Of a stretch of 46,460 bases of DNA, positions 36,580 to 40,210 are shown one piece after another. The stretch is from NCBI GenBank assembly GCA_023269545.1, contig JAHFTB010000018.1:1-46460 (forward strand), read 5' to 3'. The first letter of the stretch is position 1; every line of letters starts with the position of its first letter. The position numbers were made by a program, and so were the translations under genes. The notes under the pieces were generated by a model that saw only the letters and a program-made list of their open reading frames with translations, searched no databases and had not been told where the DNA came from. The DNA comes from Verrucomicrobiota bacterium (GTDB lineage: Bacteria > Verrucomicrobiota > Verrucomicrobiia > Chthoniobacterales > Xiphinematobacteraceae).

Positions 36580-37317
36580 GTGGAACAAGATTATAAAGTA
36601 AGATTAGAGGTCTTCGAAGGACCGCTCGATTTGCTGCTTTATTTGATCAAGCGAGATGAAGTGGACATTTATGACATTTCCATCGAGCGCATTACTAAGC
36701 AGTATTTGGAATACATAGGTACCTTTCAGATCCTCAATATCGAACTGGCGGGTGAGTTCATCGTGATGGCGGCAAATTTGCTCTATATTAAAAGCCGTAC
36801 TCTGTTGCCAGTCGACCAACGTGCGGTTGAAGAAGAAGAGGAGGAAGAAGATCCGCGATGGGACCTCATTCGCCAACTGATTGAATATCGCAAGTTTAAA
36901 GAAGCCGCAGGGCAATTGCGCCTTCAGGAAGCATTGCGGGAATGTTTGTTTCCCCGGATTTCCGCCCTTCCAGAATTAGAACCCAAAGAAAATCTTCTCG
37001 TAGAGGAAGTGGGCATATTCGACTTAATTCACGCCTTTCAAAAAGTTCTCAAACGGCAGAAAAAGACCGAAAATTTACGGGAAATTTTTGAAGAAAATTT
37101 TAGCGTTGCGGATAAAATGGAACAACTCATGGCTGCCACCGCCCTGGGTAAAGACATTCGTTTTGAGGAACTTGTGGGAGAAACTGCGAGTCGAACGGAA
37201 ATCGTAGTTACTTTTCTTGCTTTATTGGAGTTGATTCGAATGAAACAATTACATGTCCGACAGGAAGAACGATTCGGAGAGATCTGGATTGTCAGAGTAT
37301 TTTGCTGTAGTGTATAA
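36580..37317 (+). CDS. scpA: Segregation and condensation protein A
   Basis: ScpA is the kleisin subunit that bridges SMC heads in the bacterial condensin. The 245-residue protein starts KVRLEVFEGPLDLLLYLIKRDEVDIYDISI, the classical N-terminal helical domain. An acidic loop (EEEEEEDPRWDL, about 88-99) precedes the middle, and a winged-helix C terminus follows (VVTFLALLELIRMKQLHVRQEERFGEIWI). GTG 36580 gives the conserved opening. R1 copy 4 has inserted between it and scpB. Confidence 0.93.
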   Translation: MEQDYKVRLEVFEGPLDLLLYLIKRDEVDIYDISIERITKQYLEYIGTFQILNIELAGEFIVMAANLLYIKSRTLLPVDQRAVEEEEEEEDPRWDLIRQLIEYRKFKEAAGQLRLQEALRECLFPRISALPELEPKENLLVEEVGIFDLIHAFQKVLKRQKKTENLREIFEENFSVADKMEQLMAATALGKDIRFEELVGETASRTEIVVTFLALLELIRMKQLHVRQEERFGEIWIVRVFCCSV

Positions 37318-37531: not shown

Positions 37532-37539
37532 TTACATTG

Positions 37540-38250
37540 ATGCCTGATTGCCCATTTTCTCTGACTTCCATAGTGGAGGCATTGCTTTTTGCTTCCCAGA
37601 AGCCTCTTTTGGAAAAGGAAATTTTGGCCGCCTTGCGATCTGCTGCCGAAGCCTATCCGGAAGATCCTTCTCCCAAAGCATTTGCCAAGGTTCCGCCCAA
37701 GGAATTGGCTGTCGCACTGAAAGAACTGGCGAATATTTATAAGCAAAGCGAACGTTCTTTTGAACTGAAAGAAACTGCGGCTGGTTGGCAATTAGTGACG
37801 AGGCCGGCCTTTGCTCAATGGCTTCGCCAACTATTTCCAGAGAGTCGTCCGGCTCGGCTGAGCGCTCCCGCTTTGGAAACTCTGGCAATCGTCGCATATC
37901 GTCAACCTCTGACCCGAGCAGAGATGGAAAAAGTGAGAGGAGTGGCTGTGGATGGAGTGGTGCAAACGCTTCTGGACCGTGGATTGATTCGCATCGCCGG
38001 CCGTGCGGAAATTCCCGGAAGACCACTGATGTATGAAACTACCCAGTATTTTTTAGAGCATTTTGGATTAAAATCTTTAGATGAATTACCTAATTCACAC
38101 GAACTGAGACGAATTGCTGCTGTCACTGCGGAGACGCCTGAAGCGACTGACGCGAAAGCGGAGGTTTTTTCTGATCAAACTTCGCAGATGGCCAATACTT
38201 CTTCCGAAGAAAAGGAAGGCTCGATTACCGAACAGACAGCAAATTGTTAA
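37540..38250 (+). CDS. scpB: Segregation and condensation protein B
   Basis: ScpB dimers bind ScpA in condensin. The protein has two winged-helix domains: SLTSIVEALLFASQKPLLEKEILAAL (about 7-32) and ALETLAIVAYRQPLTRAEMEKVRGV (about 110-134), then VQTLLDRGLIRIAGRAEIPGRPLMYETTQYFLEHFGL. The last 50 residues are acidic and poorly conserved. ATG 37540 directly follows the R1 target repeat, leaving no visible Shine-Dalgarno sequence. Confidence 0.93.
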   Translation: MPDCPFSLTSIVEALLFASQKPLLEKEILAALRSAAEAYPEDPSPKAFAKVPPKELAVALKELANIYKQSERSFELKETAAGWQLVTRPAFAQWLRQLFPESRPARLSAPALETLAIVAYRQPLTRAEMEKVRGVAVDGVVQTLLDRGLIRIAGRAEIPGRPLMYETTQYFLEHFGLKSLDELPNSHELRRIAAVTAETPEATDAKAEVFSDQTSQMANTSSEEKEGSITEQTANC

Positions 38251-38274
38251 AACGCGTTTTTTCAAGACTTGATT

Positions 38275-39171
38275 ATGACTGAACCTGCATCCACATCTCC
38301 CACTTACTATATTTCCCCCACGGAATCTCCAAGCGCCCAAAATACTTTAGCCGGGTTCAGAGCGAAAATTGACGTAATAGATTCGCAACTCCTCACCCTT
38401 CTCAATCAACGCGCCGTGATAGTGCAACAAGTAGGAGAGTTGAAAAAACGCGAAGGATTAGCCATTTATTCTCCCAGCCGGGAAGAACAGATGCTCCGTC
38501 GTCTGGAAGAACAGAGCAAAGGTCCCTTGCCGGGATTGTCAATTAGAGCTATATATCGTGAAATCTTATCGGCATCTCGAGCCGTGGAAAAAGAAGTCGT
38601 GATCGCTTGCTTTGGACCTGCCGGGGGAGTGACCCACCAAGCGGCCAGTAGGCGATTTGGCTCTAGTGTTAAATATATTTTCTTCAGGGAAACTTCGGAC
38701 GTTTTCAATCAAGTTGCCAAAAACGAGGCGGATTGCGGAGTGGTTCCAATCGAAACAGCCCAAGGGCTCGCAGCTCATAGTTTGGATGACTTGGCTGAAA
38801 CGGAATTGACTGTCTGTGCTGAAATTACCCTGGACGACCAAAATAAGGACGGGGCTGAAACAGGACGTTTTTTGGTGCTGAGCCGTACGCCCAATCCTCC
38901 TTCCGGATTTGATCGCACCTTAATTGCCTTGCGGGTGGAAGATAAGCCAGGAGCATTAGTATCTGCTCTGGAGCCATTTAAAGAGAACTCCATCAACTTG
39001 TCTCATTTGGCAAGCCGACCTGCTTCCAAGGGGAGCAAGGACCTCTTTTTCTTTGTGGAAGCCCAGGGTCACTCCAGAGAGTTACAGACGAGCGATGTTT
39101 TTCGCGAACTCTCCAAGCGATGCCGGGCAGTCAAGGTATTGGGTAGTTATCCTCAAGAAAAGCCGTTATAA
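38275..39171 (+). CDS. pheA: Chorismate mutase with a shortened prephenate dehydratase domain and ACT domain
   Basis: The N-terminal chorismate mutase domain is clear (FRAKIDVIDSQLLTLLNQRAVIVQQVGELK, about 24-53; YSPSREEQMLRRL). The prephenate dehydratase part begins FGPAGGVTHQAASRRFG and PIETAQGLAAHSLDDL, then jumps from VCAEITL to DDQNKDGAETGRFLVLSR. The stretch of roughly 60 residues between these is missing, ENS is replaced by ETA, and the catalytic TTRF motif reads ETGRF. A complete ACT domain follows (VEDKPGALVSALEPFKENSINLSHLASRPA). Full P-proteins are about 360 residues; this is 298. It probably keeps mutase and feedback control but not dehydratase activity. ATG 38275 is 24 bases after scpB. 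Confidence 0.85.
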   Translation: MTEPASTSPTYYISPTESPSAQNTLAGFRAKIDVIDSQLLTLLNQRAVIVQQVGELKKREGLAIYSPSREEQMLRRLEEQSKGPLPGLSIRAIYREILSASRAVEKEVVIACFGPAGGVTHQAASRRFGSSVKYIFFRETSDVFNQVAKNEADCGVVPIETAQGLAAHSLDDLAETELTVCAEITLDDQNKDGAETGRFLVLSRTPNPPSGFDRTLIALRVEDKPGALVSALEPFKENSINLSHLASRPASKGSKDLFFFVEAQGHSRELQTSDVFRELSKRCRAVKVLGSYPQEKPL

Positions 39172-39661
39172 AGTAGAGACGAGGAAGATGGGACGGTAAA
39201 AAAAGCCATGAAGTGGAAGAAAATAAGGGAGTAAAAGCAAACAGCGAAGGCGCAGAAAACAACGAAGGTATGGAAAACAACGAAGTTGTGTCTTGAAAGG
39301 CTCCTTTTTTATTCATACCATGCTGCCTTCCAGGTTTTCTGAAGGATGCAATACGGGAATGGCAAGTACTTAATAGCGTCCGCTGGCGACAAGAAATCAA
39401 CTATTGTCTTCGCCGAAGAACATTCGAGCCTTCCCTTGTTTTACGGTGTGGTTTTTTCCTTCATTATCCGATTTCTTTTCTTATTTAAGAAAATCGGAAG
39501 CCTGGTTAAAAGCAGCGCACCGGTTTTGAGGGCTGGGCACATGTGTTGTCCATCAGCCAAAAGAAACCGTTGCTTATTAACCGTTGCCAGTTGTCTACGC
39601 AGAAAAGTTTCTGCGTTCTCACATACGCGACAGCTCTGGCGGCAAATCAACCTATTCAAGC
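39172..39661 (+). other. Long leader upstream of the RRM protein
   Basis: About 490 bases without a gene on the coding side. 39180-39290 is purine-rich and holds a degenerate repeat (AACAACGAAG twice). A stem CCGATTT/AAATCGG is near 39469-39497, and a perfect hairpin CGCAGAAA-AG-TTTCTGCG is at 39598-39615. Long structured leaders are typical of cold-shock or RNA-binding proteins that regulate themselves; this is inference. Confidence 0.4.
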
Positions 39662-40210
39662 ATGTCATCTCATTCGTCCTATCCGTCAAAAAAACGGCCG
39701 TTCCGGCGTGGTTCTCCCCGCCGCCATCATCCATCCCGCAACCGAGAAAAAAGTGGCGAAAATTATCGCCCTCGCGAAGAAGCTCCTTCTCCTCCTTCTT
39801 CTCTCTGGCAGAAGATCTTAAAATTCTTTGGAGGAAAGAAAAAATCAAAAGAAACTCCCCCTATCCTTCAAAAGCCTTTTTGGCAGAAAGCCTCGGAGCC
39901 CGCTTCGCGTCCGGAAATCCGAAAACCGGAAATAGTGGAAGTGACTTCACCTCGTATCTACGTCGGGAATTTATCCTTTGACGCTACGGAAAGCGATTTA
40001 TTCGAATTGTTTAAAGGAGTCGGCAGCGTCCAAAATGTGGAAATAGTTTGCCATCGACAAACACTTCGATCCAAAGGATTTGCATTTGTCCAAATGCAAA
40101 CAGTGGATGAAGCGCGCCGCGGAGTTACGGAGTTGCACGACAAAGAATATATGGGCCGTAAATTGGTAGTCAGCGGAGCAAAAGCATTGGAAGAACGTCG
40201 GTTTGAGTAA
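39662..40210 (+). CDS. RRM-type RNA-binding protein with basic N-terminal tail
   Basis: A 182-residue protein. Residues 1-95 are low-complexity and basic (MSSHSSYPSKKRPFRRGSPRRHHPSR...). One RRM follows (about 100-175), with RNP2 IYVGNL and RNP1 KGFAFVQM. Small single-RRM proteins in this phylum and in cyanobacteria bind RNA and are often cold-inducible; the long disordered basic N-terminal half is unusual. The ATG 39662 is preferred; an upstream start at 39584 adds 26 residues. Its stop overlaps the miaA start. Confidence 0.83.
   Translation: MSSHSSYPSKKRPFRRGSPRRHHPSRNREKSGENYRPREEAPSPPSSLWQKILKFFGGKKKSKETPPILQKPFWQKASEPASRPEIRKPEIVEVTSPRIYVGNLSFDATESDLFELFKGVGSVQNVEIVCHRQTLRSKGFAFVQMQTVDEARRGVTELHDKEYMGRKLVVSGAKALEERRFE

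Follow-up and report, generated by a model that had tools for sequence, protein, structure and literature searches.

Within a 46,460-nucleotide stretch of Verrucomicrobiota DNA (the window; contig JAHFTB010000018.1), the gene at positions 38275-39171 of the forward strand is that of a P-protein, with the domain order chorismate mutase (CM), prephenate dehydratase (PDT), and ACT, from which one lobe of the dehydratase (lobe II) has been excised and in which the dehydratase site has been lost. Its product of 298 aa plus stop, defined by an open frame, its translation, and its retention in relatives, is likely to be a monofunctional CM derived from a P-protein by the loss of lobe II, with the dehydratase function passed to another gene. 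Proteins with this CM, half-PDT, and ACT organization are hereafter designated as gutted P-proteins. The same excision is conserved in tens of genomes, and chance is therefore excluded.

Architecture of the gutted P-protein

The reading frame starts with ATG, and an upstream TTG at 38269 is a possible alternative start. The AroQ-type CM domain (residues 25-106; 38347-38592, + strand) is complete, as indicated by its invariant residues and by matches to Pfam CM_2 (PF01817; 88.1 bits, profile positions 2-80 of 80, cut-off 27) and NCBIfam TIGR01807 (CM_P2; 84.7 bits, above the cut-off of 69.55). It is followed by the first part of PDT lobe I (residues 108-190; 38596-38844, + strand), identified by a fold match of the AF2 model and by a Pfam PDT match (PF00800) covering only positions 1-78 of 181, with 51.8 bits against a cut-off of 25.2. 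Based on alignment, the former catalytic PIENS site now reads I-E-T (residues 159-161; 38749-38757, + strand). Comparison with 69 full-length P-proteins places the absence of about 78 lobe II residues at the junction QNKD (residues 189-192; 38839-38850, + strand), after which alignment identifies the returning strand of lobe I (residues 193-206; 38851-38892, + strand), with TGRF (residues 196-199; 38860-38871) standing for TRF. The ACT domain (residues 210-293; 38902-39153, + strand) is suggested by a fold match and a Pfam score of 25.4 bits, slightly below the cut-off of 27. GALV and ESRP are the named motifs of the Phe-responsive ACT domain in a published description (PMC10845154); GALV is present in the window protein (GAL at 38950-38958), and the ESRP position is ASRP (39010-39021). 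The preliminary description of this DNA had considered the frame, the mutase, and the ACT domain to be clean, which holds for the first two and only partly for the ACT domain, where GAL is kept and ESRP is altered.

The protein alignment comprised 113 rows (44 gutted and 69 full-length), leaving out identical sequences and seven proteins that were contig-cut, fragmentary, frame-broken, or limited to the CM (L077, L144, L168, L050, L073, L076, and L119). The excised region appears as 77 columns occupied in 90% or more of the full-length rows but in no more than 10% of the gutted ones. Relative to L016, 78 residues are absent from the window protein and 76 to 85 from the 28 gutted rows examined, with endpoints lying within a few residues of two common points. 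The preliminary description was thus right in reporting an in-frame loss from the dehydratase, while its figure of roughly 60 residues was too low. The missing residues (ca. 78) correspond to one structural lobe of PDT, lobe II. With lengths counted from where the mutase begins, the proteins fall into two classes, 264-282 aa for the gutted and 350-361 aa for the full-length forms, the exceptions being a few fragments and contig-cut or divergent rows. Further reduction was also observed, with L073 (G017; 125 aa) and L076 (G027; 134 aa) consisting of the CM alone and L050 (G035) being a 187-aa frame with CM and half-PDT that lacks ACT.

The SHPQ motif is absent from 44/44 gutted proteins because it sits within the excised lobe. 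The catalytic Asn is lost in 43 of the 44 and the Thr of TRF in 42, L113 retaining both residues and L103 the Thr; the Arg of TRF is present in 42/44. Among the full-length rows, Asn and Thr occur in 69/69 and the Gln in 64/69. We take the Asn and Gln of the PDT motifs to be the dehydratase catalytic residues; in the window protein, Asn, the Gln of SHPQ, and the Thr of TRF are all absent (PIETAQG; TGRF), in agreement with the changes noted earlier at Asn and TRF. The mutase residues R29, R46, K57, R69, and E105 (window numbering) were found in 44/44 gutted proteins, and E70 in the window protein and 35/44, with Ala in the rest (9 of the 40 main-clade members). These residues presumably have the active-site roles of their counterparts in the E. 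coli enzyme, and their presence, together with the CM_2 score, supports at the sequence level the original suggestion of a chorismate mutase. In the ACT domain, GAL occurs in 34/44 gutted proteins and SRP in 24/44 (ASRP in 18, HSRP in 5, ESRP in 1); SRP is missing from some members, including both endosymbiont copies. The E of ESRP is present in 68/69 full-length proteins. With ESRP altered in all but one of the gutted proteins, their ability to sense Phe may have been modified or abolished.

The AF2 model of the window protein reached a pLDDT of 83.9. Its residues 108-298 match PDT structures with Z scores of 20-22 and an rmsd of 2.3 to 3.0 Å over 181 to 191 residues, and ACT-only structures match with Z of about 9-10. 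The preliminary description had allowed for a structurally complete active site; the model and the alignment to P-proteins instead predict a PDT fold in which lobe II is missing and the dehydratase site is incomplete. Among the best matches was 7alz, a crystal form of GqqA with 194 resolved residues, in which residues 86-170 had been removed by proteolysis while the remainder superposed at 0.76 Å and L-Phe was still bound (PMC8192741). According to alignments mapped by hand, the natural cut lies at about GqqA 91-168. The GqqA structure thus indicates that a protein gutted like this can fold and bind Phe, as the window protein, by analogy, may do. A second AF2 model, built for L113 from a set of four sequences, had a pLDDT of 67.8; its strands and helices follow one another as in the first model, but it is given little weight.

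Two genes precede the gutted gene, presumably scpA (36580-37317, + strand) and scpB (37537-38250, + strand), as judged from sequence; homology to the neighbours in relatives was tested directly. Homologues of the scpA-like neighbour lie beside both gutted and full-length pheA genes across the order, and the scpB-like neighbour displays equal synteny in the two kinds of loci. Based on this common scpA-scpB-pheA locus, gutted and full-length genes are orthologues. Downstream lie two overlapping ORFs (39346-39981 and 39584-40210), the second of which we assume, from its look, to encode an RRM-type RNA-binding protein, running into a miaA-like gene.

Pathway context and distribution across the order

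In the window genome (G000), PHENYLALANINE is made via a complete stand-alone PDT encoded on another contig (G000:C26:39402-39932), which has its own C-terminal ACT region, scores 149-150 bits with Pfam, and has intact IENSS and VTRF motifs. The genome also contains one strong TyrA-type match. Judging from sequence, the lost dehydratase step is supplied by this stand-alone PDT; of the two options raised in the preliminary description, another route to phenylalanine or its import, the former is borne out and the latter is not required as an explanation. A single CM_2 match (PF01817) was found in each of the genomes G000, G002, and G003, and no AroH-type CM (PF07736) in G000; the window protein is thus the only CM detected in G000, the possibility of a second CM of another class having been rejected with these two profiles. 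Many stand-alone PDTs of the order (e.g., L055, L063, L052, L058, and L066) carry VTHF, VTNF, or VTQF rather than VTRF, which possibly reflects a changed substrate or regulation; unlike these, the stand-alone PDT of G000 retains VTRF.

A survey of 117 genomes of the order (E 0.001; classes counted by hand from the rows) revealed 26 genomes with a gutted form, 43 with a full-length P-protein, 14 with a stand-alone PDT only, and 34 without a match; the 14 include genomes of family f13 whose gutted protein scores below the threshold of E 0.001. The deletion raised for comparison with relatives in the preliminary description is therefore shared by 26/117 genomes, full-length forms occur in other families, and the window copy is not a degrading one. 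A complete second PDT accompanies the gutted protein in 25 of the 26 genomes, the exception (G082) being possibly an assembly effect, and the full-length P-protein in only 2 of the 43 (G071 and G080). None of the 117 genomes combines a gutted with a full-length P-protein, the latter being found in 0/26 gutted genomes. In family f8 (e.g., G010, G020, G028, G036, G044, and G050), most genomes have no PDT match (PF00800) despite high completeness, and those scanned for CM_2 also had no match, possibly reflecting Phe/Tyr auxotrophy or another pathway.

The gutted gene has an intact frame in G002, the 915,884-bp genome of the congeneric Xiphinematobacter, which lives as a symbiont of nematodes, and the gutted protein is the sole CM detected in this symbiont as well. 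Two same-genus genomes of 0.9 Mb have kept the gutted gene, with scpAB gone from the neighbourhood examined. Both symbiont copies (L046 from G002 and L045 from G003) have lost SRP and one residue near GAL from the ACT domain. Xiphinematobacter americani is described in PMC4607532 as showing an enrichment of genes for the synthesis of aromatic amino acids; the missing SRP would be consistent with a supplier of amino acids having given up feedback. The Xiphinematobacter and Buchnera literature searched contained nothing on how pheA is organized.

Repeated excision within the phylum

Outside the main clade, gutted forms were identified in G040 (f6); in L113 and L119; in L114, L116, and G364 (f18); and in G177 (f34, from a different class of the phylum). 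The sampling of the phylum included 240 genomes with part of their matches listed, from which no frequency is derivable; members of f6 other than G040 are full-length or further reduced. Trees were computed on subsets of 85, 66, and 58 rows, and the AU tests compared groups named after the tree was seen and share the model's long-branch trouble. Under these terms, a single ancient excision for all gutted forms was rejected (p 2.8e-6; p 0.015 in an earlier test with fewer rows), as were one clade uniting the main clade with L113, L114, L116, and L195 (p 3.3e-5) and one uniting L113 with L114, L116, and L195 (p 0.0047). Grouping the main clade with L196 (G177), which sits on a very long branch, was not rejected (p 0.117), and L036 (G040) adjoins the main clade in the gene tree; for L196 and L036, independence therefore rests on the family codes f34 and f6. 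Gene trees and genome families point to at least three independent excision events in the phylum, and probably to five, each of them at one and the same hinge.

Among the matches listed, a full-length P-protein occurs together with another PDT in G129, G071, G192, G202, and G321, as well as in G352, where the second match is partial. These genomes belong to the same families as gutted rows or lie close to them, and in G129 and G192 the full-length dehydratase has a damaged SHPQ. Such genomes suggest an order of events, as read from sequence, in which a second PDT was gained and decay or excision followed; L113, having Asn and Thr without lobe II, indicates that the lobe can also be cut out before point decay sets in. 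G128 and G137 carry the gutted gene and the stand-alone PDT as tandem neighbours. Long branches characterize the stand-alone PDTs of G040 and G130, which do not belong to a starred group formed by 31 others; different PDTs thus seem to have been recruited, tentatively in view of these branches.

The following course of events would account for the window protein as a monofunctional CM. A lineage would acquire a separate, complete prephenate dehydratase, making the P-protein's own dehydratase redundant. Lobe II (about 78 residues between two hinge points) would then be cut out in frame, joining lobe I to ACT. The gutted mutase would make all the prephenate in the cell, which the stand-alone PDT would convert to phenylpyruvate and TyrA would use for tyrosine. 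What remains, the half-PDT and ACT, would be a folded unit, probably a dimer, with a possible capacity to bind phenylalanine and to exert feedback on the mutase.

Role of the retained half and comparison with known systems

Selection was assessed in 10 gutted and 10 full-length pairs of hand-chosen close relatives, segments with dS of at least 1 being excluded from the pooled values. The pN/pS ratios for CM, half-PDT, and ACT were 0.080, 0.156, and 0.116 in the gutted pairs and 0.093, 0.053, and 0.132 in the full-length pairs. Gutted genes are thus under purifying selection in every segment, with CM and ACT constrained as before and the half-PDT, with a ratio about three times that of full-length genes, still constrained. 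Mean pairwise identity was 0.66 for CM in gutted and full-length proteins alike, 0.48 (37 main-clade rows) versus 0.71 (69 full-length rows) for the half-PDT, and 0.52 versus 0.60 for ACT.

The CM activity and dimerisation of the window protein are predicted from its sequence, and we regard Phe feedback on its mutase as an evenly balanced proposition, with lower expectations for members without SRP. With a pN/pS about threefold above that of full-length proteins, the half-PDT could be a mere linker, and the half-PDT and ACT together might be an inert linker or a dimerisation remnant attached to an unregulated CM, a reading that we consider possible although somewhat doubtful. It would explain why ESRP is altered in 43/44 gutted proteins, why SRP was lost from both symbiont copies, and why some lineages dropped everything but the CM. 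Yet ACT is as constrained in gutted (0.116) as in full-length genes (0.132), and GAL and SRP persist in 34 and 24 of the 44 proteins, respectively; moreover, the E of ESRP is likewise missing from several complete stand-alone PDTs and may thus not be needed in this group.

Lobe I and ACT could also serve as a docking module, through which the mutase and the stand-alone PDT would re-form a complex and channel prephenate from one enzyme to the other. PDTs dimerise, and in the GqqA dimer the ACT domains build a shared sheet (PMC8192741); 25/26 gutted genomes of the order also encode a second PDT, and the two genes are in tandem in G128 and G137. We nevertheless judge this unlikely, as metabolic need alone accounts for the co-occurrence and the two genes lie on different contigs in G000. 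Still far less probable is a pseudogene in decay, with the dehydratase damaged and the remainder being lost. Although the lower half-PDT identity of the gutted forms (0.48 versus 0.71) and the further reduced members (CM alone in G017, the 187-aa frame of G035, and a very divergent copy in G014) could be read in this sense, the gutted set holds one length class (264-282 aa), all its segments are under purifying selection, the frame is intact in a 916-kb symbiont genome, and the gutted protein is the sole CM detected. The preliminary description had likewise argued against plain decay, which the deletion common to relatives and pN/pS values of 0.08-0.16 in the three segments now confirm; on grounds of conservation and selection, a frameshift or an error of assembly was rejected along with a pseudogene. 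That the gutted protein alone has kept some dehydratase activity, residual or altered, for which the Arg of TRF in 42/44 might speak, is scarcely credible with lobe II and SHPQ gone in 44/44, Asn lost in 43/44, Thr lost in 42/44, and the putative PDT active site placed in the cleft between the two lobes (PMC8192741).

As a broader and tentative proposal, somewhat short of an even bet, gutted P-proteins would form a recurrent class: once a second dehydratase is gained, lobe II would tend to go at one hinge because lobe I and ACT are a self-standing, Phe-binding relay coupled to the mutase, so that subtraction would turn a bifunctional into an allosteric monofunctional enzyme, with independent occurrences in Alphaproteobacteria and in more than one lineage of Verrucomicrobiota. 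Gutted P-proteins amount to an experiment that nature has repeated, taking away one of the two lobes of a catalytic domain and sparing the regulatory domain beyond it, and comparing gutted, intermediate, and intact forms could reveal how ACT signals to the mutase in P-proteins and what part lobe I has in this signal. There is also a consequence for annotation: being above the PF00800 cut-off (51.8 versus 25.2 bits), the window protein could be labelled a prephenate dehydratase, whereas in these genomes, among them that of a nematode endosymbiont regarded as a source of essential amino acids, the dehydratase is another gene.

The open-access literature searched yielded no account of a gutted P-protein. 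By synteny and sequence, the window protein is orthologous to the P-protein (PheA, PRK10622), with CM, PDT lobe I, and ACT in equal order. In contrast to the P-protein, it has neither lobe II (about 78 aa) nor the catalytic Asn, Gln, and Thr, and its genome has a separate PDT. The exported CM-CDT fusions (PMC10520331) are likewise an unusual CM architecture in the Phe pathway; they are, however, exported fusions to a working cyclohexadienyl dehydratase and not the result of a loss. SeGqqA in 7ALZ lacks nearly the same lobe (86-170), with the rest of the fold unchanged and L-Phe bound (PMC8192741), but it is a proteolysis product in the crystal of a stand-alone PDT without CM, while the excision in the window is encoded and inherited.

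The Azospirillum "chorismate mutase" pheA (L190, WP_109331660.1; 290 aa; PRK06034) also has a CM followed by a half-PDT without the same lobe. PRK06034 ("hypothetical protein") spans the junction without the 78-aa gap, aligning window residues 18-214 to model positions 3-200 of 283, with a best score of 66.6 bits that is far below the NCBIfam cut-off of 349. A profile-profile comparison of the window and Azospirillum types without the CM part matched across the junction (probability 94.9, E 4.7e-8), whereas the full-length P-protein profile matched over 40 columns only. Such gutted P-protein-like sequences (L190-L194) were seen in Azospirillum and Methylobacterium; their neighbours, as far as annotation shows, include hisC, homoserine O-acetyltransferase, and metW. 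Unlike the window protein, the Azospirillum protein is far more diverged, with neither PDT nor ACT found by Pfam, and its gene adjoins hisC and not scpAB.
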